Positions 4,534-16,435 of a stretch of DNA of 28,503 nucleotides are shown piece after piece. A program made the translations under genes and the position numbers. Origin of the DNA: Anaerolineales bacterium (GTDB lineage: Bacteria > Chloroflexota > Anaerolineae > Anaerolineales > Villigracilaceae). Every line of letters begins with the position of its first letter. Position 1 is the stretch's first letter. Location: the NCBI GenBank assembly GCA_016928525.1, contig JAFGKO010000068.1:1-28503 (forward strand), in the 5' to 3' direction. The notes under the pieces are model-generated. The model was given only the letters and a program-made list of their open reading frames with translations, ran no database searches and was not told the DNA's origin.

Positions 4534-4703
4534 CCCCGCCGGTGCCGTGTGCTGCGAAGTTTTGAACCTGCTTTCGCAGGTGGGCTCCGACCCAGAAACG
4601 CCGCCTTGGCTCAGGCCTATCGCGTTATTTCTGTGAGACAGAAGCCCGTTTTGGGGGTGTTGGCTCAAAACCGTGGTTGCAACATCACGAACACAGCAGG
4701 GCC
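4534..4703 (-). ncRNA. Candidate structured non-coding RNA, 6S-like in shape
   Basis: Read on the minus strand, this 170-nt stretch folds into an irregular rod. The closing stem pairs CCUGCUGUGUU (4690-4700) with AGCACACGG (4545-4553), with two single-base bulges. A 10-bp stem pairs GUUUUGAGCC (4662-4671) with GGUUCAAAAC (4559-4568). The 3' side can instead form CCUGC-GAAA-GCAGG, whose GNRA tetraloop appears only on the minus strand. A 5-bp GGGCU/AGCCC stem and an AACGC/GCGUU stem (4622-4626 with 4597-4601) lie toward the tip. A hairpin UUCUGU-CUC-ACAGAA (4629-4643) competes with part of the apical stem. An extended -10 element lies upstream and an intrinsic terminator downstream. Size, closed rod shape and a large internal loop with an alternative hairpin on its 3' side recall 6S RNA, the RNA polymerase-binding regulator, but the primary sequence was not matched. 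It could be another structured RNA. Confidence 0.5.
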
Positions 4704-4709
4704 GACTTT

Positions 4710-4718
4710 CTTATACCA
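4710..4718 (-). promoter_or_regulatory. Extended -10 promoter for the candidate RNA
   Basis: The minus strand reads TGGTATAAG, an extended -10 (TGn plus TATAAG). Initiation about 7 nt downstream would fall near 4703, exactly where the closing stem of the candidate RNA begins. No convincing -35 box is seen. Confidence 0.45.
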
Positions 4719-4798
4719 TAAACCAAAAGTCGTGGGTAGGGAAAAATTAAATACAGCATTGTAAGTTGCCCTAAACGAACGAAATTTTAAGAGAACCG

Positions 4799-4827
4799 TT
4801 GAATTTACAATTGACTTGTGCTACCCT
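4799..4827 (+). promoter_or_regulatory. Possible promoter of the lysozyme gene
   Basis: TTGAAT (4799-4804) and TACCCT (4822-4827) are 17 bp apart, and TGC precedes the -10. The -10 is a weak match, so this is tentative. It would give a leader of about 30 nt that includes the strong GGAGGAG ribosome site. Confidence 0.35.
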
Positions 4828-4866
4828 GTAATTGTCTTATTCTTTCTGCTAATCTGGAGGAGAAAT

Positions 4867-5859
4867 ATGGAATACGTACCCGGGATTGATATTTCATACT
4901 GGGAAGGCGGTATCGACTGGAAAAAAGTGCGCGGCGCTGGCGTTCGCTTTATGTTTACCAAGGCCACCGAAGGCGAAGGGTACGAAGATCCCACGCTTGA
5001 TGATAACTGGGTTGGCGCCAAATCGGTGGGAATCTTGCGTGGCGCGTATCATTTTTTTCACCCCAATATGAATCCGACCAAGCAGGCGGACCATTTCATT
5101 CGAGCGATTAAGAAGTTGAATGACAAAGGCGAGTTACCACCTGTACTGGATTTGGAAGTAACCGACAATCAGCCCAATCAAACTATTATCGACCGGGCAA
5201 AAACCTGGCTCGACCGTGTGCAAGGAGCCCTTGGCAAACGCCCCATCATCTATTCTAGCCCTGGCTTTTTAAAATATAACTTTGTCGTTCCCGGCGGCGG
5301 CCCACCTTTGTGGACGAAAGACTATGTTTTGTGGATAGCCAATTATGGCGTGAGCCAGCCGCTTTTACCCAAGGGTTGGCTCAAGTGGAACTTCTGGCAA
5401 TATTCGGAATCCGGGACGGTCAACGGGATCAACGCCGCCGTGGATCTGGACTGGTTCAACGGCACAATTGAAGAACTTTATAAATTTGCCAATACCCAAC
5501 CGCCGGGCGCGACCACTTACAAGGTCAAGCAGGGAGATACGTTGCAGAGCGTCGCAAACCAATTTGGCCTGTCTCTGTCCGAGTTGGTGGCAGCCAACCC
5601 CCAATTGATCCAACCGAACATGGTGCTGAAGATCCCTGAGTCGGTCATAGACACGATGATACCAGCCGATACCGGGGCAATCGATACTGGCACAACAGGC
5701 GGCGGGACCGCGGTAGAAAAGACCTATACCGTAAAATCCGGCGACACACTCTCAGGCATCGCGCTCAAATTTGGCACTACTTATGGATTGATCGCTCAGT
5801 TGAACGGCATCGTGCCGCCGTATATTATCCACCCTGGGCAGGTGCTCACGATCCCATAA
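4867..5859 (+). CDS. GH25 lysozyme with two C-terminal LysM repeats
   Basis: This 330-residue protein starts at the ATG preceded by GGAGGAG. The TTG start further upstream lies inside the likely promoter. Residues 4-208 are a glycoside hydrolase family 25 (Chalaropsis-type) muramidase: GIDISYWEGGIDW with Asp8, VLDLEV with the Asp95/Glu97 catalytic pair, RPIIYSS, WIANYG, WNFWQYS and the C-terminal AVDLDWF. Residues about 217-257 and 286-330 are LysM domains (YKVKQGDTLQSVA and YTVKSGDTLSGIA), which bind N-acetylglucosamine in peptidoglycan. It should cleave the MurNAc-GlcNAc bond. From this start there is no signal peptide, so export by a non-classical route, or a role on incoming peptidoglycan, remains open. 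It is a single gene, convergent with asnS, with a shared terminator. Confidence 0.95.
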   Translation: MEYVPGIDISYWEGGIDWKKVRGAGVRFMFTKATEGEGYEDPTLDDNWVGAKSVGILRGAYHFFHPNMNPTKQADHFIRAIKKLNDKGELPPVLDLEVTDNQPNQTIIDRAKTWLDRVQGALGKRPIIYSSPGFLKYNFVVPGGGPPLWTKDYVLWIANYGVSQPLLPKGWLKWNFWQYSESGTVNGINAAVDLDWFNGTIEELYKFANTQPPGATTYKVKQGDTLQSVANQFGLSLSELVAANPQLIQPNMVLKIPESVIDTMIPADTGAIDTGTTGGGTAVEKTYTVKSGDTLSGIALKFGTTYGLIAQLNGIVPPYIIHPGQVLTIP

Positions 5860-7345: not shown

Positions 7346-9115
7346 TCATTCCCTGATCTTGATATGCAAATCCTGCAACTGCCCCTCGTCCACGAACGAC
7401 GGCGCTTCGGCCATTACGTCTTTGGCGGCCTGGTTCTTGGGGAAGGCGATCACCTCGCGGATGTTCGGCTCGTCTGCCAGTAACATCACGATGCGGTCGA
7501 TGCCGGGCGCAATGCCGCCGTGCGGAGGCGTGCCGTATTCGAAGGCCTCCAGCATATGACCGAAACGCTCCTGCGCCACATCTGGGTCGAGACCGATCAA
7601 TTTGAAAACCTTCTCCTGCAGCTCACGGTTGTGGATTCGGATAGAGCCACCGCCGACCTCGTAATTATTCAACACTAAGTCATATTGCGTCCCGCGCGCC
7701 TTCCAGGGTTCGTTTTCGATCAGCGGGATGTCTTCCGGCAGCGGCGAGGTAAACAGGTGATGGCTGGGGTCCCAGCGCTCTTCCTCCTCGTTATACATCA
7801 CGAACGGGAAATCAATCACCCAACAGAAGCCCAACACATCTTTATCGCGCAGGCCAAGACGGTCGCTCAGCAGGTAGCGTAGCCGCCCCAGCGATTCGAA
7901 GACCACGGACGGTTTATCGGCTATGAACAGCAGCAGATCGCCCTTCTCCGCCTCCATTCTGGACATCACGGCTTGCAGCCGTTCATTGGACAGGAACTTG
8001 GCGAACGATGACCTCGTTTCCCCTTCACCCGTCAGGGCGATGTATGCCAACCCCTTTGCGCCCAAATCCTGGACAAAAGCTGTCAGTTCGTCGATCTGCT
8101 TACGTGTGTAATCGCCCAGCCCTTTGGCGTTGATGCCCCGCACGTGCCCGCCCGCGGCGACAACATTCTCGAAAACGCCGAAGCCGGAACCAGCCGCTAA
8201 ATCGGTAGCATCTACCAGTTCCAGCCCGAAGCGGATGTCGGGATTATCCTTCCCGTAGCGTTCCATCGCTTCCTTGTAGGTCAGGCGCGGCCATGGTGTT
8301 TGCAATAGTCGCTTGTGCGGGACAACTTCGGCCACCATTTTGGTAAACATTTCTTCCACCAGCGCCATCACGTCTTCGCGTTCCACGAAGGACAGCTCCA
8401 TGTCAAGCTGGGTGAACTCGGGCTGGCGGTCACCTCGTTGGTCTTCGTCACGGAAGCAGCGCGCGATCTGGAAGTAGCGCTCGATCCCGGCGACCATCAA
8501 CATCTGCTTCAGCTGCTGAGGCGACTGGGGCAAGGCGTAGAATTGGCCAGGATGCACGCGCGAAGGGACGAGATAATCGCGCGCGCCCTCGGGCGTGGTC
8601 TTGAACAGGATGGGAGTCTCGATTTCGAGGAAGCCCTTGCCATCGAGATAGTCACGGATGAATTTGATGACTTTGTGACGGAGTTCAAGGTTGTTGCGCA
8701 TCTTCTCGCGGCGTAGGTCGAGGTAGCGGTATTTCAACCGCATGTGCTCTTCCGGTAGCTTGTTTTCATCGGTCAGTACAAAGGGAAGGGGCTTGGCCGA
8801 ATTGAGCGCCCTGACGTCCGTGGCAATCACCTCGATTTCACCGGTTTCCATTTTCGGGTTGACCATGCCTTCCGGCCGCTTTTGAACGATGCCGGTGATT
8901 TGCAGTACCCACTCAGAGCGCACATTGGCGACCAGGTCGAGGGTTTCTTTGGGAAGATCGGGATTAATAACAACTTGAACAAGTCCAAAACGGTCGCGCA
9001 AGTCAAAGAAAACCACCCCGCCGTGATCGCGGCGACGATGCACCCAGCCTGCCAGCATCACAGTCTGGCCGGCGTGGGAGGCCCTCAGTTCACCGCAGGT
9101 ATGCGATTTATACAT
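7346..9115 (-). CDS. aspS: Aspartyl-tRNA synthetase (bacterial type, with GAD domain)
   Basis: This 589-residue class IIb synthetase attaches aspartate to tRNA-Asp. It has an OB-fold anticodon domain (1-105, [20 protein letters not shown]), a catalytic core with [20 protein letters not shown] (from residue 221), the bacterial GAD insertion (about 290-410), and motif 3 [13 protein letters not shown] (from residue 534). A GGAGG site lies before the ATG. His31 and Gly83 correspond to the positions that, in Pseudomonas aeruginosa AspRS, are linked to acceptance of tRNA-Asn. The enzyme may therefore be non-discriminating, although asnS follows it. A promoter and a long structured leader precede the gene (9116-9405). 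Confidence 0.97.
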
Positions 9116-9131
9116 GCCGCACCTCCATTAG

Positions 9132-9222
9132 TGTCACTCTGAGGGAGCGTAGCGACCGAAGAGTCTCAAATAACTCGGATGTTTTTTGTTACTTAAGACC
9201 CTTCGCTCCGCTCAGGGTGACA
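9132..9222. repeat. Foldback element (GTCACnCTGAG...CTCAGGGTGAC type) in the aspS leader
   Basis: A left arm beginning TGTCACTCTGAGGGAGCG and a right arm ending GCTCCGCTCAGGGTGACA are imperfect inverted copies with about 28 nt between them. The TGACnCTGAGCGGAGCGAAGGGTCT consensus is a widespread dispersed palindrome in environmental bacteria. It lies in the 5' untranslated part of aspS, so it would be transcribed as a long hairpin. Confidence 0.65.
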
Positions 9223-9240
9223 TACGTGCTATACAAAATA

Positions 9241-9360
9241 AATCGCCCTCCGCATCTGCGTTGGGCGATTGGTTTTTGAACCTTCTTTTATTAACCAGCA
9301 AAGCTTCGCCCAACGCGCGGATGGCGATCATTATCGTTATTATTATTGTTGGCGAAGCTA
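9241..9360 (-). promoter_or_regulatory. Candidate transcription attenuator in the aspS leader
   Basis: On the minus strand three segments compete. Segment A (AGCUUCGCCAAC, 9360-9349) can pair over about 12 bp, with one bulge, with the 3' half of segment B (GUUGGGCGAAGCU, 9314-9302). All of segment B can instead pair with segment C (9268-9241), whose end runs into UUUAUUUUG. Segment C can also fold alone through AUCGCCC/GGGCGAU just before the U-rich tract. A:B would act as antiterminator and C or B:C as terminator. No T-box consensus (AGGGTGGnACCGCG) is present. It could instead be a tandem dispersed palindrome or the terminator of the upstream aldo/keto reductase gene. Confidence 0.45.
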
Positions 9361-9384
9361 TAATTATGTTTCATAAGTTGGCGT

Positions 9385-9413
9385 ATTATAGCACAAACTT
9401 GAGGCCTATTTAA
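9385..9413 (-). promoter_or_regulatory. Promoter of aspS-asnS
   Basis: The minus strand has a perfect TATAAT (+ strand 9385-9390) with the extended TGC just before it and TTAAAT 17 bp upstream (9408-9413). Initiation near 9378 would give a leader of about 260 nt to the aspS start. The element overlaps the stop codon of the aldo/keto reductase gene. Confidence 0.65.
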
Positions 9414-10341
9414 GCACAGAATCGCTGGCTTCATCGAGTTTTGCAACTTCTTCCTCGGTCAACTTCCAGCCCAGTGTGCCGGCATTTTCTTCTGCCTGTT
9501 TGGCATTTTTCGCGCCGGGGATGGGCATGGTGCCTTTGCAGATGCACCAGTTCAGCGCCACTTGCGTCTTGGATTTGCCACCATGTTCTTGGCCGATTTC
9601 GGTCATCAGTTTGAGCAATGGCCCGATCTTCGGTAACAATCCTCCATAGCGTTGCCCGCGTATGCCGGGCGGGGGGGTTTCGGCGGAGTATTTTCCTGTC
9701 AGCAAGCCTTTTTCGATGGGACTGTAAGCGATCAGGCGCACTCCCAACTCCTTGCAACGCGCCAGTAAACCGTCATATTCGACATTGCGGTTGAGCAGGC
9801 TGTAAGTCACCTGGTTGGCCGCCAGCGGGACATCTTTTCGCGCCAGTGCGGAATAGGCTCGTACCATCTGCGTCTGGCTGTAATTCGAAACGCCGACGGT
9901 GCGCGTCAAGCCTTCTTTTACGGATTCCGCCATCGCTTCCATAAGGTTTTCAATAGGGAGGATCGAGTAAGGCTGGTGAATCTGGTACAGGTCAACGCTC
10001 CCAACCCCAAGCCGTTCCAGGCTGCTTTGCAAAGCCCGGATCAAAGATTTCTTCTGCAACCGCCAGGGGAAGGGGAAGTATTTCGTGGCTATCAGCACTG
10101 GCTGGTCAGTCTCTTTCAGGAATTGCCCAAGCAAACGCTCCGAGCGCCCGCTGCCGTACACCTCTGCGGTATCTACAAAGCGGATGCCGGCCTCCAGGGA
10201 GACTTTGAACGCCGCGCGGCAATCTTCATCTCCATGCGTTTGTCCGTATTGCCAGATCAGCCGGTCCCCCCATTGCCATGCCCCCAGTCCAAGTTCAACT
10301 GCGTGTAGGAAACGCGTTTCGTTGCTTATCGTATCGTTCAT
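9406..10341 (-). CDS. Aldo/keto reductase
   Basis: This 311-residue protein is a TIM-barrel NADPH-dependent reductase of aldehydes or ketones. The catalytic tetrad is visible: Asp57 and Tyr62 in FVDTAEVYGSG, Lys87 in LIATKYFPFP, and His122 in LYQIHQP. Other family marks are VGVSNYSQTQM, IAYSPIEKGLLTGKY and IPGAKNAKQAEEN near the C-terminus, which binds the cofactor 2'-phosphate. The start has GGAGG 9-10 nt upstream. The substrate cannot be read from the sequence. It stands alone: divergent from rnc, with the aspS promoter overlapping its 3' end. Confidence 0.93.
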   Translation of the reverse strand: MNDTISNETRFLHAVELGLGAWQWGDRLIWQYGQTHGDEDCRAAFKVSLEAGIRFVDTAEVYGSGRSERLLGQFLKETDQPVLIATKYFPFPWRLQKKSLIRALQSSLERLGVGSVDLYQIHQPYSILPIENLMEAMAESVKEGLTRTVGVSNYSQTQMVRAYSALARKDVPLAANQVTYSLLNRNVEYDGLLARCKELGVRLIAYSPIEKGLLTGKYSAETPPPGIRGQRYGGLLPKIGPLLKLMTEIGQEHGGKSKTQVALNWCICKGTMPIPGAKNAKQAEENAGTLGWKLTEEEVAKLDEASDSVLK

Positions 10342-11340: not shown

Positions 11341-14300
11341 ATGCCTCTTCGTCTTAAATCTCTCGAATTACACGGATATAAAACCTTCGCCTCGCGTACC
11401 CTCTTCGAGTTTGCTGATGGGATTACCGCCATTGTTGGTCCGAACGGCTCCGGCAAATCGAACATCGCCGATGCGCTGCGTTGGGTTTTAGGGGAGCAAT
11501 CCTACGGTTTGTTGCGCGCCAAACGGACCGAAGATATGATCTTTGCTGGTTCCGAGGGCCGCACGCGCGCTGGCATGGCTTCGGCCTCCATCCTGTTCGA
11601 CAACAACGATAACTGGCTGCCTGTAGACTTCAGCGAAGTGTCCATGGGACGCCGCGCTTACCGCGATGGCCGCAACGACTATGTGCTGAACAACCAGCAC
11701 GTCCGCTTGCGCGACATCAACGAACTGCTGGCGCAGTCCGGCTTGAGCGAACGGACTTATACCATCCTCGGCCAGGGGTTGGTGGATGCCTCACTCGCCT
11801 TGAAGGCCGACGAGCGCCGCAAGCTGTTCGAAGAAGCCGCCGGAGTGGGGTTGTACCGCTCCCGTCGCGAGGAGACCTTGCGCCGTCTGGAGACCACCCA
11901 GCGCAACCTGGAGCGCGTGCTCGACATCATGGCCGAGTTGGAACCGCGCCTGCGCACATTGGATCGACAATCCCGCCGGGCCAGGGAATACAGCCGCATG
12001 CAGGAAGATTTGCACGTGTTGCTGCGCGATTGGTATGGCTATCACTGGCACAAAACGCAGAAAGAACTGGCTGAAAGCCGCGAGATCCTGCGCCAGCAGG
12101 AGGTCCGCCAGCGCGAGGCGCGCGAGGGTTACCAGAGCATCCAGGCGGATTATTCGACTTTCCGTGAACGCTTGCAGGGACTGCGCGCGCAATTGAATAC
12201 CTGGCATCGCGAATCGTCCGAGTTGCACAGCCAGCGCGAGGCTGTCAGCCGGGAACTGGCCGTGCTTGATGAACGCCAGCGCTCGTTGACTGCCTCGCGC
12301 CAGACGTTGAGCGCCGACCACGACCGCGCGGTGGATGAAGGTACCCTGGCCCGTGAGCGCCTGAGCGAAACCGAAAGCGAAGTCGCGCGCGTGGAGGCAG
12401 AGTTCGAAGAGGCCAATGGGCGATTGAAGTCTGCGCAGGAGGCGCTGGGGATGCGCCAAGCAGAGCGTACTGGGGTCGAGGAGAAATTGCGAGCAGCGCA
12501 GGCGCTGATCACATCTCTGCATTCGCGTCGGGCCGAGACGCAAGCACGCCTGGATGAACTGGGTCTACGTCGCGCGGCGCAAGCTGAGCGTATGGAAGCC
12601 GCTAAAAGCGCCATCCAGGAGGCGGATAATGAAGTCGTGCGCGCGGAGGGTGAGCACCATTCGGCAGAGTTGGCGCTTAAAAAGGCGGAAAAAGCCTTGC
12701 ATGAGGCCGAAGCGGACCTGGAGAAACGGGTGGGCGAAGTCGCCCGTTTAGAAGAAGAAAAACGCCGCAAGAACGAAGAACTGGCGGCGCTCAAGGCGGA
12801 CCAATCGCGCCTAGTTGCCCAGTTCGAAGTGCTGGAGCAGGCCGAGCAATCGTTGCAGGGCTATGCCGAAGGGGCGCGTTTCTTGATGGAGGCTGCCCGC
12901 CAATCCGGGCTAGGTGGCGCGCGCGGCGCTTTGAGCGCTGCGTTGGATGTGCCGGCCGAACTCGAAACCGCCATTGCTGCCGCGCTGGGCGAACACCTGG
13001 ACGCAGTGCTGCTCGAGGGCGAAAAACTCGAAGATGCCCTGACCCTGCTCGAGTCCGACCAGGCCGGCCGCGCCGCCCTGCTGCCGTTGGACGGGCTGGC
13101 AAAGGTCGCGCCGCTCAAAGCGTCCGCGGACGGTGACTGCCTGGGTGTGGCCGCCGGGCTGATCGATGCGCCTGCCGAATTTAGAGTTGCCATCGATTTG
13201 CTGCTGGGCCAGGTGCTGGTCGTGCGCGACCGCGCCGCCGCCCGTCGCCTGATTGCCGGGCAGCCGGGACACGTGCGGGCGGTGACGTTGCGCGGCGAAG
13301 TCTTCCGCGCGGACGGGCTGGTACTGGCTGGCAAATCGTCAAGTTTGTCGACCTTGAGCAGACCGCGCCAGCGCCGCGAGTTGGGGGAATCATTGACCTC
13401 GCTGGGCGGGCGGCTGGAGTCACTTGAAGCCGCGCTTCAAAACCTGAACTCGAACCTGCTGGCCGCTGGTGAAGCCTCGTCCGCCGCCGAAGCGACTCTG
13501 CGCGAGGTGCGCGCGAACTTTGCAAGCGCGCAATCCAAAGAGCGGGAAGCAGCCGTCGAACTGGATTCGGCAAAGCGCCAGCTCGAGTGGCAGAAGAAAC
13601 AGCTCGAAGCGTTGCAGGTTGAAGCCTCGCGTGCCGAGGCGGAGTGGACTGAGTTGAACGAATCGCAAGGGCAGATCGAGTCCGAATCCGCTGGGGCGCA
13701 GGAAGAGGTCCGCATCCTGAACGGGCAAATATCAGGTATGTCGTTGGATGAAGCCCAGGAACAGGTGTCGTACTGGACGACGCGTGCCGCGGTGGCCGGG
13801 CAGTCCCTAGAGGATGTCAGAGCGCGCCGGGACGAGCGGGAGGCCGCGTTGACGCGCCTGGAAGGACAGCAGAAAGATTACGCCGATCGCTTGGAAGAGA
13901 TCGAGGCGGGCCTGGCGCAGTTGGAGCGCGACCGGGAGAGCCTGCACGAACGCGAGGGCGCGTTGAACGAGCAGATCGCCGCCATGCGCGCCAAGATCGA
14001 CCCGGCTGAAGGGGATCTGGCGACCACCGAGCGACTGGAACGCGAGTTGCAGGAAAAGGAGGACAATGCCCAGCGCGGGATGACTTCAGCAGACCGTCTG
14101 TACAACCAGGTACAGGTGGACGTCATCCGCAGGCAGGAAGCGCTCGATTCTCTCAGAAACCGCATCCAGGACGATTTCGGGCTGGTGATGTTCGAGTATG
14201 AGAATGATGTCTCTGGCCCGATGCCGCTGCCGCTGGATGGCATGGTGGAACAGTTGCCGGTGGTGAATGAAATTTCCCCCGAACTGGAAGAGCAGATGAA

Positions 14301-14949
14301 GCGCCAGCGCGCGCAACTGCGCCGCATGGGACCCATCAATCCCGAAGCGCAAAAGGAATTCGAATCGGAGAGCGAGCGCTACGAGTTCATGAAGACGCAG
14401 GTGGAAGACCTGCGCAAGGCCGAAGCCGACCTGCGCCAGGTGATCGCTGAGTTGGACGAACTGACCAAGCAGGAATTCTCCAAGACGTTCGAAGCGGTGG
14501 ACAAGGAATTCCGCCAGATCTTTGTGCGACTGTTCGGCGGTGGTTCGGCACGTCTTGGGTTGACCGACCCCGAAAACCTGGTGGATACCGGCATCGAGAT
14601 CGAAGCACGCCTGCCCGGTCGCCGCGAACAGGGATTGGCCTTGCTATCAGGCGGGGAAAGAAGCCTGACGGCCATCGCGCTGGTCTTTGCGTTGTTGCGC
14701 GTCTCGCCCACGCCAGTGTGCGTGATGGACGAGGTGGACGCGATGCTGGATGAAGCCAACGTGGCCCGTTTCCGTGACCTGTTGGAGGAACTCAGCCAGG
14801 ATACGCAGTTCATCATCATCACCCACAACCGCAACACGGTCCAGGCGGCGGATGTGATCTACGGCGTGACGATGGGCCGCGACTCGGCCAGCCAGGTTAT
14901 CAGCCTGAAGCTGGATGAGGTCACGGATGAGTTTATTGGGCGGACGTAG
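11341..14949 (+). CDS. smc: Chromosome segregation protein SMC
   Basis: This 1202-residue condensin ATPase has the complete SMC layout. The N-terminal ATPase lobe has Walker A GPNGSGKS (33-40). It is followed by an arm coiled coil, a globular hinge (about 519-665, rich in Gly/Ala/Leu), a second coiled coil, and a C-terminal lobe with the ABC signature LLSGGERSL (1101-1109) and Walker B CVMDEVDAML (Asp1130, Glu1131). It compacts and separates chromosomes as a homodimer, normally with ScpA and ScpB, which are not in this window. It follows rnc by 55 nt without an obvious ribosome site. The last 23 codons before GRT are duplicated, in diverged form, 760 bp downstream behind the toxin gene. Confidence 0.98.
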   Translation: MPLRLKSLELHGYKTFASRTLFEFADGITAIVGPNGSGKSNIADALRWVLGEQSYGLLRAKRTEDMIFAGSEGRTRAGMASASILFDNNDNWLPVDFSEVSMGRRAYRDGRNDYVLNNQHVRLRDINELLAQSGLSERTYTILGQGLVDASLALKADERRKLFEEAAGVGLYRSRREETLRRLETTQRNLERVLDIMAELEPRLRTLDRQSRRAREYSRMQEDLHVLLRDWYGYHWHKTQKELAESREILRQQEVRQREAREGYQSIQADYSTFRERLQGLRAQLNTWHRESSELHSQREAVSRELAVLDERQRSLTASRQTLSADHDRAVDEGTLARERLSETESEVARVEAEFEEANGRLKSAQEALGMRQAERTGVEEKLRAAQALITSLHSRRAETQARLDELGLRRAAQAERMEAAKSAIQEADNEVVRAEGEHHSAELALKKAEKALHEAEADLEKRVGEVARLEEEKRRKNEELAALKADQSRLVAQFEVLEQAEQSLQGYAEGARFLMEAARQSGLGGARGALSAALDVPAELETAIAAALGEHLDAVLLEGEKLEDALTLLESDQAGRAALLPLDGLAKVAPLKASADGDCLGVAAGLIDAPAEFRVAIDLLLGQVLVVRDRAAARRLIAGQPGHVRAVTLRGEVFRADGLVLAGKSSSLSTLSRPRQRRELGESLTSLGGRLESLEAALQNLNSNLLAAGEASSAAEATLREVRANFASAQSKEREAAVELDSAKRQLEWQKKQLEALQVEASRAEAEWTELNESQGQIESESAGAQEEVRILNGQISGMSLDEAQEQVSYWTTRAAVAGQSLEDVRARRDEREAALTRLEGQQKDYADRLEEIEAGLAQLERDRESLHEREGALNEQIAAMRAKIDPAEGDLATTERLERELQEKEDNAQRGMTSADRLYNQVQVDVIRRQEALDSLRNRIQDDFGLVMFEYENDVSGPMPLPLDGMVEQLPVVNEISPELEEQMKRQRAQLRRMGPINPEAQKEFESESERYEFMKTQVEDLRKAEADLRQVIAELDELTKQEFSKTFEAVDKEFRQIFVRLFGGGSARLGLTDPENLVDTGIEIEARLPGRREQGLALLSGGERSLTAIALVFALLRVSPTPVCVMDEVDAMLDEANVARFRDLLEELSQDTQFIIITHNRNTVQAADVIYGVTMGRDSASQVISLKLDEVTDEFIGRT

Positions 14950-14958
14950 GTAACAGAG

Positions 14959-14967
14959 TGGTATAAT
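14959..14967 (+). promoter_or_regulatory. Extended -10 promoter of the toxin-antitoxin operon
   Basis: TGGTATAAT is an extended -10 with a perfect TATAAT (14962-14967), lying 12 bp after the smc stop codon. No clear -35 is present. Initiation would be near 14974, immediately before the ATG at 14976, so the transcript may be leaderless or use the ATG at 15003. Confidence 0.55.
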
Positions 14968-14975
14968 AGCAATAA

Positions 14976-15248
14976 ATGGCTTATTTTAAGAAAGTAGCAA
15001 AAATGGAATTTAAGACACAAATTACAAAAGGTGGCAGGCTTGTTGTGCCAGCCAAGTTACGCAAGGCTCTACAAATCGAAGCCGGTGATGAGGTTGTGTT
15101 ACGGCTTGAGAATGGTTCTCTTCGGCTGATTCCGTTGCATCAAGCGGTCAGACTGGCTCAGGAGACGATCCACAAGTATGCCCCCAAAGGTGTTTCCCTT
15201 GTGGACGAGTTGATCCAGGCCAGGCGTGCAGAGGCAAGGGATGAGTAA
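14976..15248 (+). CDS. AbrB/MazE-type antitoxin
   Basis: This protein of 90 residues (81 if the ATG at 15003 is used) has a SpoVT-AbrB swapped-hairpin DNA-binding domain: FKTQITKGGRLVVPAKLRKA followed by LQIEAGDEVVLRLENGSLRLIP. The C-terminal helix-rich tail (KGVSLVDELIQARRAEARDE) is typical of the toxin-binding part. It should neutralise the PIN toxin next door and autorepress the operon. Its stop overlaps the toxin start by 8 nt. No strong ribosome site precedes either candidate start, and the -10 element directly upstream favours leaderless initiation at 14976. Confidence 0.88.
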   Translation: MAYFKKVAKMEFKTQITKGGRLVVPAKLRKALQIEAGDEVVLRLENGSLRLIPLHQAVRLAQETIHKYAPKGVSLVDELIQARRAEARDE

Positions 15249-15624
15249 TGTCGTCCTGGATGCTTCGGCTCTGCTGACGCTTTTGAATGATGAGACAGGC
15301 GCAGATAAAGTCAGAGAGCTATTGCCGGATGCGTCGATTTCAGCGGTTAATCTGGCGGAAGTGGTCACGCGTCTGTCTCTGATTGGGATGCCCGGGGAAC
15401 AGATCCGCGAAGTTTTAACCCTGCTTGGGTTGGACATAATGCCCTTTGATGAAGAACAAGCTTTCCTGACAGGTTTATTTGCAGCGCAAACACATTCTCT
15501 TGGTTTATCTCTGGGCGACCGCGCCTGCCTGGCCCTGGCGAGCGTAACTGGCGCTACTGCGGTCACTGCCGACCGTGCTTGGAAGGAATTAGACCTTGGC
15601 GTGAAAATCCAATTGGTGCGGTAA
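15241..15624 (+). CDS. PIN-domain toxin, VapC-like
   Basis: This 127-residue PIN ribonuclease has the expected acidic residues: Asp7 in VVLDASALL, Glu40 in AVNLAEVV, Asp93 in SLGDRACLALA and Asp111 in AVTADRAW. VapC toxins cleave tRNA or rRNA using Mg2+. The ATG at 15241 was chosen over the GTG at 15226 because it directly follows GGCAAGGG and gives the canonical N-terminus. It overlaps the antitoxin gene by 8 nt, a typical coupled pair. Directly downstream (6 nt) begins a relic of the smc 3' end, which points to acquisition of the cassette at this site. Confidence 0.92.
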   Translation: MSNVVLDASALLTLLNDETGADKVRELLPDASISAVNLAEVVTRLSLIGMPGEQIREVLTLLGLDIMPFDEEQAFLTGLFAAQTHSLGLSLGDRACLALASVTGATAVTADRAWKELDLGVKIQLVR

Positions 15625-15630
15625 GGGGAA

Positions 15631-15702
15631 ATGAGCCGCGAATCAGCCAGTCAAGTCATCAGCCTGAAGCTGGATGAGGTGACGGACGAATTTATTTGGT
15701 AA
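15631..15702 (+). pseudogene. Relic of the smc 3' end (24 codons including stop)
   Basis: This stretch aligns without gaps to smc 14872-14940 over 69 nt with 10 mismatches (59/69 by my count). Seven of the ten changes are synonymous and the three amino-acid changes are G to S, D to E and G to W. The reading frame is intact from ATG to TAA and is preceded by AAGGGG, so a 23-residue peptide could even be made. It differs from the functional copy in its last codons (TGG TAA against GGG CGG ACG TAG). It most likely represents a former or foreign smc terminus displaced when the toxin-antitoxin cassette arrived. Confidence 0.85.
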
Positions 15703-15716
15703 TTGTTGAAAACGTC

Positions 15717-15763
15717 CCGAAGGTTTCCGCCAGGCACTCAAATTTCTTGCATAAAACCTTCGG
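15717..15763. repeat. Inverted repeat, possible terminator of the vapBC unit
   Basis: CCGAAGGTTT (15717-15726) and AAACCTTCGG (15754-15763) are perfect 10-bp inverted copies with 27 nt between them. The loop is long for an intrinsic terminator and no clean T tract follows. The palindrome is in the style of other dispersed repeats in this window. The rest of the gap to 15865 shows no gene. Confidence 0.5.
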
Positions 15764-15865
15764 AACGGTGCTTGGATATAACGGGATTTTAAACCCGGAA
15801 AACCAAAATGAGAAATTCGCATAAAATTAGGCAATACCAATAATGAAGCTGCATTGAGGTGAACG

Positions 15866-16435
15866 ATGACTGAGCCAAACTTAAGAGAGAACTTATCCGA
15901 ACTAAGCTGGGTCGCAAAACTGCCCTTAGTACGTGACCCGGTATTCGTTCGCCAGATGTCACTGGTGTTCCTGATTCCGCTGATTGTTTTAGGGTTGATT
16001 TTGATGGTGATCGAATGGCCGCCGGATATGCAGCGCCTGGGGATGATCGCGAAGATCGTGCTGCTGACGGGTGCAGTAATGCTGGTATTGTACCTGTTCG
16101 TCATCTTCGGGGTGCTGCGCGGTCGTCAGGAAATCCGCTTCACGTTGGATGAGAAGGGCGTCCGCGAACAGACCGCCGGTCCGCTGAAATACATGAACAT
16201 CGTCAAGTTGTTGCTGGTGCTTTCCGGGAAACCAACCTATGCCGCGATCGGACTAATGGCGCAAGGGCCGAAGTCCGAGCGTATCACCTGGAAGCGGGTC
16301 CAAAAGGTCGTGCCTGATCCGCAGGCGATGACAATCATCCTGCGTAAAGACCGCACCGATTTGATGGTGCTGTATTGCACGGAAGAAAATTATGCACAGG
16401 TATTGGCCTGGGCCCAGTCCCACGCGGGAGGCTGA
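15866..16435 (+). CDS. Two-helix membrane protein of unknown function
   Basis: This 189-residue protein starts behind GAGGTGA. Two strongly hydrophobic segments lie at about residues 31-51 and 61-84 (FLIPLIVLGLILMVIEW and IVLLTGAVMLVLYLFVIFGV). A soluble part follows with a strand-rich pattern (QEIRFTLDEKGVREQTAG, SERITWKRVQKVVPDPQAMT, IILRKDRTDLMVLYC). This arrangement resembles the YcxB-like/PH-like cytoplasmic domain found behind two TM helices in many small bacterial membrane proteins. No catalytic motif is seen. It stands alone between the toxin-antitoxin region and a bidirectional terminator. Confidence 0.75.
   Translation: MTEPNLRENLSELSWVAKLPLVRDPVFVRQMSLVFLIPLIVLGLILMVIEWPPDMQRLGMIAKIVLLTGAVMLVLYLFVIFGVLRGRQEIRFTLDEKGVREQTAGPLKYMNIVKLLLVLSGKPTYAAIGLMAQGPKSERITWKRVQKVVPDPQAMTIILRKDRTDLMVLYCTEENYAQVLAWAQSHAGG

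Follow-up and report, generated by a model that had tools for sequence, protein, structure and literature searches.

How does a small toxin-antitoxin pair come to lie behind an essential gene, between two copies of that gene's own end, when no integrase is in evidence? The question is raised by a 28,503-nucleotide (nt) stretch of DNA from an Anaerolineales bacterium (contig JAFGKO010000068.1 of assembly GCA_016928525.1; hereafter the window), in which the chromosome segregation gene smc is followed by an AbrB-PIN gene pair and then by a second, diverged copy of the smc end. To our knowledge, the movement of small toxin-antitoxin pairs that have no adjoining recombinase is poorly understood. 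The layout of the window recurs with other cassettes and at other genes in related bacteria, which suggests that such cassettes travel by way of gene ends common to donor and recipient, with no integrase devoted to the task.

A gene pair between two smc ends

The locus is made up of the following elements.

11341..14949, plus strand: smc, chromosome segregation protein of 1202 amino acids (aa), an open reading frame (ORF) with 894.8 bits against TIGR02168 (cut-off 567)
14872..14940, plus strand: E1, the smc-end copy within the intact gene, one half of direct repeat D1, with 5 differences from the related locus L001
14962..14967, plus strand: TATAAT, a possible -10 box of a cassette promoter, seen by eye
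14976..15248, plus strand: putative AbrB/MazE-type antitoxin gene (PF04014, 35.2 bits; TIGR01439)
15241..15624, plus strand: putative PIN-domain toxin gene, VapC-like, 127 aa (PF01850, 52.6 bits)
15631..15699, plus strand: E2, the stranded, diverged smc-end copy, the other half of direct repeat D1 (86%), open to a TAA at 15700-15702
15713..15767: terminator-like inverted repeat I3 behind E2, with arms of 14 nt that are 93% complementary; it may act as a terminator

E1 comprises the 69 coding bases preceding the final two smc codons, and a repeat search of the window returned E1 and E2 as a single 69-nt direct repeat (86%, spacing 759). When the smc end was compared with the 9 kb downstream of it, the match to E2 was far beyond chance (E = 1.7e-18). 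The two copies agree at 59 of 69 bases; of the ten differences, seven are synonymous and three are not (G>S, D>E and G>W), and our re-count thereby reproduces the figures of the original prediction, which had been made from the letters alone. Random changes would be synonymous in about 25% of cases (P = 0.004).

Between E1 and E2 lie the AbrB and PIN genes only, and E2 begins 6 nt past the PIN stop codon. The two genes overlap by 8 nt and both Pfam domains score above their cut-offs, confirming the MazE/AbrB-type and PIN identities first proposed for the cassette. VapBC-type modules likewise pair overlapping genes for an AbrB-fold and a PIN-domain protein; the pair itself is ordinary and may function as toxin and antitoxin. 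A sequence search of the PDB with the PIN protein gave no relative. For the AbrB gene, a start at 15003 (MEFKTQ...) is a better fit to the homologue in genome G001, in a comparison with locus L235, and a GGTATAAT-like stretch also precedes AbrB at other AbrB-PIN loci, judged by eye. No integrase or transposase family was found among the 23 window proteins scanned (some ORFs lie outside the scan), in agreement with the earlier statement that no integrase is present; nor did these 23 include a reverse transcriptase family.

Recurrence of the layout behind smc and at other genes

Other cassettes at the same site were among the expectations set out for this locus, and they are indeed found behind smc in other species. 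An order-wide smc search covered 400 genomes, of which 350 matched, and 100 stretches were fetched. The smc-end entries number 153 distinct sequences, counting the window itself and a stray entry, L093, which is the stranded copy of genome G002; 148 of them have at least 400 bases downstream (L093 is included in both numbers). A downstream repeat of the smc end or of its terminator, at E up to 1e-3, was detected in 10 of the 148, and in three entries it is a clear coding repeat of at least 35 nt: the window, L025 (G002) and L195 (G381). In L025 the last 91 nt of smc and 64 nt beyond it recur at 92% past a beta-propeller gene; cargo other than toxin-antitoxin pairs is therefore also kept. In L195 a repeat of 35 nt at 94% lies past a pair with NTP_transf_2 and HepT-like domains, an MntA/HepT-like pair whose two proteins both fall under the NCBIfam MntA and HepT cut-offs.

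Five of the other seven matches were inspected. A weaker smc-end repeat in L071 (G005), at 73% over 83 columns, lies beside the full-length gene of an integron integrase (8759-9784, minus strand; TIGR02249, 443 bits against a cut-off of 265); the contig stops about 290 bases past that gene, and the integron is a lead in its own right. The repeat in L079 starts at about the stop codon and is located past a family-less small gene, a PemK-like toxin gene and a DUF2283 gene. The repeat in L014 is limited to sequence beyond smc and lies past DUF433 and DUF5615 genes, L010 repeats the terminator only, and the match in L125 is simple sequence by eye.

The layout is not confined to smc. Among 811 ORFs with a length of 180 aa or more, a scan of the loci found nine whose 3' end recurs in part no further than 4 kb away, including the smc genes of the window and G381 (L025 was missed, probably as a shorter locus of that gene was used). 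In G050 an AbrB-PIN unit lies between copies (69 nt, 88%) of the end of an ABC-2-like permease gene, and in L020 (G424) a DUF5674 gene and a 112-aa gene lie between copies (40 nt, 92%) of the end of pyrG, both gene names being assigned by eye. G217, taken up below, is the fifth. The other four matches have other layouts and were set aside: L138 holds dispersed repeats, L024 and L167 hold immediate copies (judged from coordinates only), and L140 looks like a diversity-generating retroelement. In L140 (634-4560, genome G337) a 753-aa gene has a second copy of its 3' end (130 nt, 83%) past a gene for a reverse transcriptase and one for 117 aa.

The same cassette types can be followed from gene to gene. 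The DUF5674 pair was examined at six loci, of more that match, and has a gene-end copy in three of the six: besides pyrG, the end of a purA-like gene is repeated in L294 over 99 nt at 94%, and in L306 a neuB-like gene has its 5' end repeated over 116 nt at 83%, both genes again being named by eye. The pair stands without a copy in L296 (the purA-like place), L301 (the neuB-like place) and L293. Homologues of the AbrB-PIN unit occupy seven places in 6 of 152 family genomes, and when the window is added a gene-end copy lies beside the unit in two of eight places; among the loci with no clear copy, L258 and L260 show only weak matches of 21-26 nt, and L261 retains little left flank. Both the AbrB-PIN and DUF5674 units are thus found at different loci in different genomes. 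The original prediction described the 3' end of smc; the layout is not confined to 3' ends, the repeated end being a 5' end in the neuB-like gene of G083 and in a 1338-aa ORF of G344. Direct repeats of a gene end around a cassette are present in the window, L025 and G381 (all at smc), G050 (ABC permease), G424 (pyrG), G099 (purA-like gene), G083 (5' end of the neuB-like gene), G115 and G344.

Some genes carry more than two copies. Downstream of a 1160-aa ORF in G115 (L322, 9952-12465) come a 143-aa gene, a caspase-domain gene of 438 aa and then a copy of the ORF's end at 94%; past this second copy come a 134-aa gene and a third, shorter copy. A formate-dehydrogenase-like gene in G217 (L180, 5875-7060; named by eye) is followed by two further diverged copies of its end, and the gene between copies 2 and 3 resembles REP-associated tyrosine transposases at 42.6 of 80 bits, below the cut-off. 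Both series look like accretion beside a gene, though the gene order in G217 is unlike that of the cassette cases. An assembly artefact is unlikely to explain the layout, which occurs in several assemblies and also inside a 4.1-Mb contig (G115).

As a measure of frequency, 400 kb each of G115 and G344 contain 22 local low-copy direct repeats, of which six pairs at four places involve a gene end. A cassette lies between the copies at two of the four, one in each genome; in G344 it is an opposite-strand nucleotidyltransferase-family gene, between copies of the 5' end of the SecA-like 1338-aa ORF. Five 50-kb stretches of E. coli K-12 gave two repeats and none at gene ends, although 250 kb proves no difference.

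Across the cassette cases the constants are a direct repeat of the gene end, a gene that remains whole, and a stranded copy that the cassette separates from the gene. The stranded copy begins 0 to about 60 nt from the last cassette gene (6 nt in the window, 16 in G381, 54 in G050, 15 at pyrG, 56 in L025, and 60 and 12 in G115), and in several cases a terminator-like repeat stands behind it, by eye. No common site is apparent across the cases, with no motif search made.

Two probable alleles and the direction of insertion

To compare coding constraint across the cases, differences were pooled over seven copy pairs (the window, L025, G381, G050, G424, G099 and copies 1-2 of G217). They comprise 41 synonymous and 15 other differences (41/56) where 26% synonymous would be expected (P about 1e-13), a test that takes differences as independent and in which 19 of the 56 come from the G217 pair alone. 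The three smc pairs contribute 15 synonymous differences against 3 others. Because 41 of 56 differences are synonymous, the two ends are likely to come mostly from two functional alleles and not from a decaying local duplicate, and in-place decay of a duplicate would not be expected to give such an overall pattern. The earlier claim that the copies diverged under coding constraint accordingly extends beyond the window, with the pyrG and purA-like pairs as cases lacking the bias.

Between the two stranded G217 copies there are 10 synonymous and 2 other changes, which makes it probable that each belonged to a functioning gene during their divergence. The G115 copies (synonymous to other differences 3:1 for E1-E2, 4:4 for E1-E3 and 1:4 for E2-E3) fit a third copy that has decayed. 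When the changes on stranded copies were polarised by relatives, synonymous and other changes numbered 5 and 1 in the window, 3 and 0 in L025, 1 and 1 in G050, 4 and 2 in the second G217 copy and 2 and 0 in the third, but 4 and 9 in the neuB-like copy.

We then compared the locus with its relatives. The window SMC protein was scanned against one genome per species and 80 loci were kept, mostly from Anaerolineales (Chloroflexota), the order that also holds the nearest relatives. The closest of the 80 is L001 (genome G001, an Anaerolineales bin), with an SMC protein of 83% aa identity. There a small opposite-strand gene follows smc directly, whereas the window has its homologue only past the AbrB-PIN pair, E2 and one further gene.

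15866..16435, plus strand: 189-aa gene, family-less, between E2 and the first gene common to L001
16560..16847, minus strand: small gene, 67% identical at the aa level to the L001 gene at 4690-4992, which in L001 lies immediately behind smc

The 189-aa protein has no Pfam or NCBIfam match and no match in the other loci compared. As the small opposite-strand gene directly adjoins smc in L001, that locus has no cassette behind smc. The AbrB-PIN unit of G001 (79% identity over 644 columns) is found on another contig, behind a LysM-like gene (named by eye), and its match to the window stops two bases past the PIN stop codon. The AbrB-PIN unit occupies different loci in the window and G001 lineages. 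A relative without the cassette behind smc, as had been anticipated, therefore exists in L001; no cassette-free strain ending in the E2 version was found, in thin sampling. Neither of the outcomes named as refuting the proposal was seen: not all relatives carry both copies, and E1 lies nearer to L001 (5 differences) than to E2 (10).

Which of the two ends is foreign? The original prediction held that the old smc terminus was the one left stranded downstream, and here the comparison runs the other way. E2 differs from L001 at 13 positions against 5 for E1, and of the 153 smc-end entries 131 are nearer E1, 6 nearer E2 and 16 tie; sampling is thin, the nearest entry beyond L001 having 12 differences from E1 and 16 from E2. 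Recombination with a foreign gene end still fits, while the stated direction is unsupported. A stretch with rnc is 79% identical between the window and G001 and the smc end is 87% identical, as would be compatible with shared ancestry of smc, E1 included, and its G001 counterpart. The same 153 entries lie nearer E1 than E2 in 110 against 24 cases for L025 and in 95 against 20 for G381. Every relative compared is nearer E1 for pyrG (24/24) and every other locus compared for the neuB-like gene (29/29), both counts referring to fetched loci, at most 30 per search, and not to every matching genome.

Elsewhere the tendency is reversed. Of 27 true tails of the permease gene, 15 are nearer E2, 7 are nearer E1 and 5 tie (16 against 8 if L279 and L289, which lack a true tail, are included), and in G217 the third copy is nearest to relatives while the gene's own end is the most distant. 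The neuB-like gene of G083 is 93% identical to that of G385, where the smc ends of the two genomes share only 76%; it may therefore itself have been transferred, and the region behind the stranded neuB-like end gives short matches only against relatives. These comparisons suggest that the direction of insertion varies between cases or is blurred by later decay.

Possible routes of insertion and their relation to known systems

From the observed layout, its recurrence over genes and cassettes and the overall synonymous bias, we infer a route in which a fragment consisting of a gene end and its cassette would integrate by way of the end that it shares with the recipient, possibly in a single crossover and with no integrase involved; we hold this to be an evenly balanced proposition. 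A short DNA fragment originating in a related genome and carrying a gene end and the adjoining cassette, would enter the cell and join the chromosome through the gene end that both share, and the two smc ends would then derive from two different functional smc alleles. In its simplest form the fragment would circularise and undergo a single crossover inside the shared end. The product would be gene end, cassette, second gene end and old terminator, with both ends coding-derived and the gene left whole. The position of the crossover would decide which copy is foreign, and either could be. In the window, pyrG and neuB-like cases E2 has diverged more, in G217 the gene's own end has, and a single crossover allows both. 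Once in place, the cassette may persist because it is a toxin-antitoxin pair.

Several points weigh against this route. No circle, donor or intermediate was observed, and a reciprocal mosaic of E1 and E2 was not demonstrated. The longest identical run between E1 and E2 is 23 nt (14899-14921), which is short for ordinary RecA recombination. The pyrG pair (1 synonymous difference, 2 others) and the purA-like pair (2 and 4) lack coding bias, and the transposase-like gene of G217 is read towards the repeated gene, which breaks the orientation rule. Around the G381 cassette, the flanks do not separate native from foreign, since the identities of smc and of the flanks are too variable from one genome to another.

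Among the alternatives, one-ended (homology-facilitated illegitimate) recombination survives best, although we consider it unlikely. Here the donor gene end would be anchored by homology and the far end joined illegitimately into the recipient's gene end, so that the stranded copy would always be native, in line with the original prediction. The layout fits, as do the third G217 copy, nearest to relatives, and the excess of permease tails nearer E2, and such recombination has been proposed for Vibrio type VI secretion system (T6SS) arrays in which displaced effector ends are left behind (PMC5361080). In the window, pyrG and neuB-like cases, by contrast, it is the stranded copy that lies further from relatives, to which later decay could contribute. 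In the cases seen the joints, moreover, lie within about 60 nt of the last cassette stop codon, which random joints would not favour.

It is improbable that the gene end serves as an attachment site for site-specific integration, with the cassette, or a larger ancestor that has since lost its integrase, carrying the matching end. The integron integrase directly behind the weak smc-end repeat in L071 would suit this explanation, as would the likeness to the elements known at icd. However, the repeated end differs between genes for the same cassette type, and hence there is no fixed attachment site; both 3' and 5' ends are used, and no integrase family that such an element would carry occurs among the 23 window proteins.

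More doubtful still is a target-site or tandem duplication that arose with the insertion and whose redundant copy then decayed. The pyrG and purA-like pairs would be compatible with it and may be exceptions of this kind, and E2 of the window is altered at otherwise invariant positions (G>S, D>E). The synonymous bias, both overall and in the three smc pairs, together with the 10 against 2 changes between the stranded G217 copies and the closer match of E1 to L001 than to E2, led us to reject duplication as the main cause. A diversity-generating retroelement, with the gene end as variable region and the downstream copy as template, has one representative in our control scan (L140) but merits practically no credence at smc and was rejected there: the 23 window proteins include no reverse transcriptase, most differences are synonymous, and the downstream copy has A at only 5 of the 10.

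The closest known system is sequential displacement in T6SS arrays. In Vibrio cholerae, new modules are added beside a conserved part of a gene and older ends and genes remain in a row (PMC5361080). As there, displaced ends remain behind with no integrase: the order E1, cassette, E2 is seen in the window, L025 and G381, and three copies are seen in G115 and G217. Those arrays concern effector genes with variable ends, in contrast to the ends found here, which belong to housekeeping genes (smc, pyrG) with no functional tie to the cassette; here, too, either 3' or 5' ends are used and the cassettes are independent two-gene units. Both circularisation of linear DNA and single crossover have been reported in E. 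coli, which would yield direct repeats of the homology around an insert, although the system there is laboratory conjugation with plasmids and not natural cassettes (PMC3240628).

Other known elements share parts of the layout. Among the papers listed in literature searches that left out most subscription journals, no title or abstract opening describes copies of core-gene ends flanking toxin-antitoxin cassettes. Prophages that attach at icd (e14, phage 21) restore the gene with a foreign end and strand the old one, with mostly silent differences. The present cases differ from them in having no integrase, in cassettes of under 1 kb to about 2 kb and in the many different genes involved. Minimal mobile elements are groups of a few genes that homologous recombination swaps between constant core-gene neighbours, a concept that is not known to include stranded gene-end copies. 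Chromosomal integron arrays hold small cassettes, often toxin-antitoxin pairs, with the newest beside a fixed point. Here, unlike in integrons, the repeated element is the neighbouring gene's own end, and the window proteins scanned contain no integrase, with no search made for attC sites.

Scars that recur where essential genes end offer a sequence signature by which transfers could be found, ordered and perhaps polarised in uncultured genomes, and they render the mechanism testable by transformation of a laboratory strain. If the proposed joining through shared ends is correct, the ends of essential genes are landing sites and the scars record donor, cargo and recipient in order. A general, integrase-free route by which fragments of cassette and core-gene end pass toxin-antitoxin and other small cassettes between Anaerolineales species is a tentative extension, which we would rate a little short of an even call.

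Three further observations concern the genes named above. Upstream of the neuB-like gene (L363-L371) the region differs in nearly every genome compared, as if many insertions land there. A stray fragment of the pyrG end (G267:C194:3377-3490) lies on a contig other than that of the full gene match. Stray fragments of the formate-dehydrogenase-like end (G424:C184:1-119 and G294:C17:59099-59245) likewise lie on contigs other than those of the full gene match.

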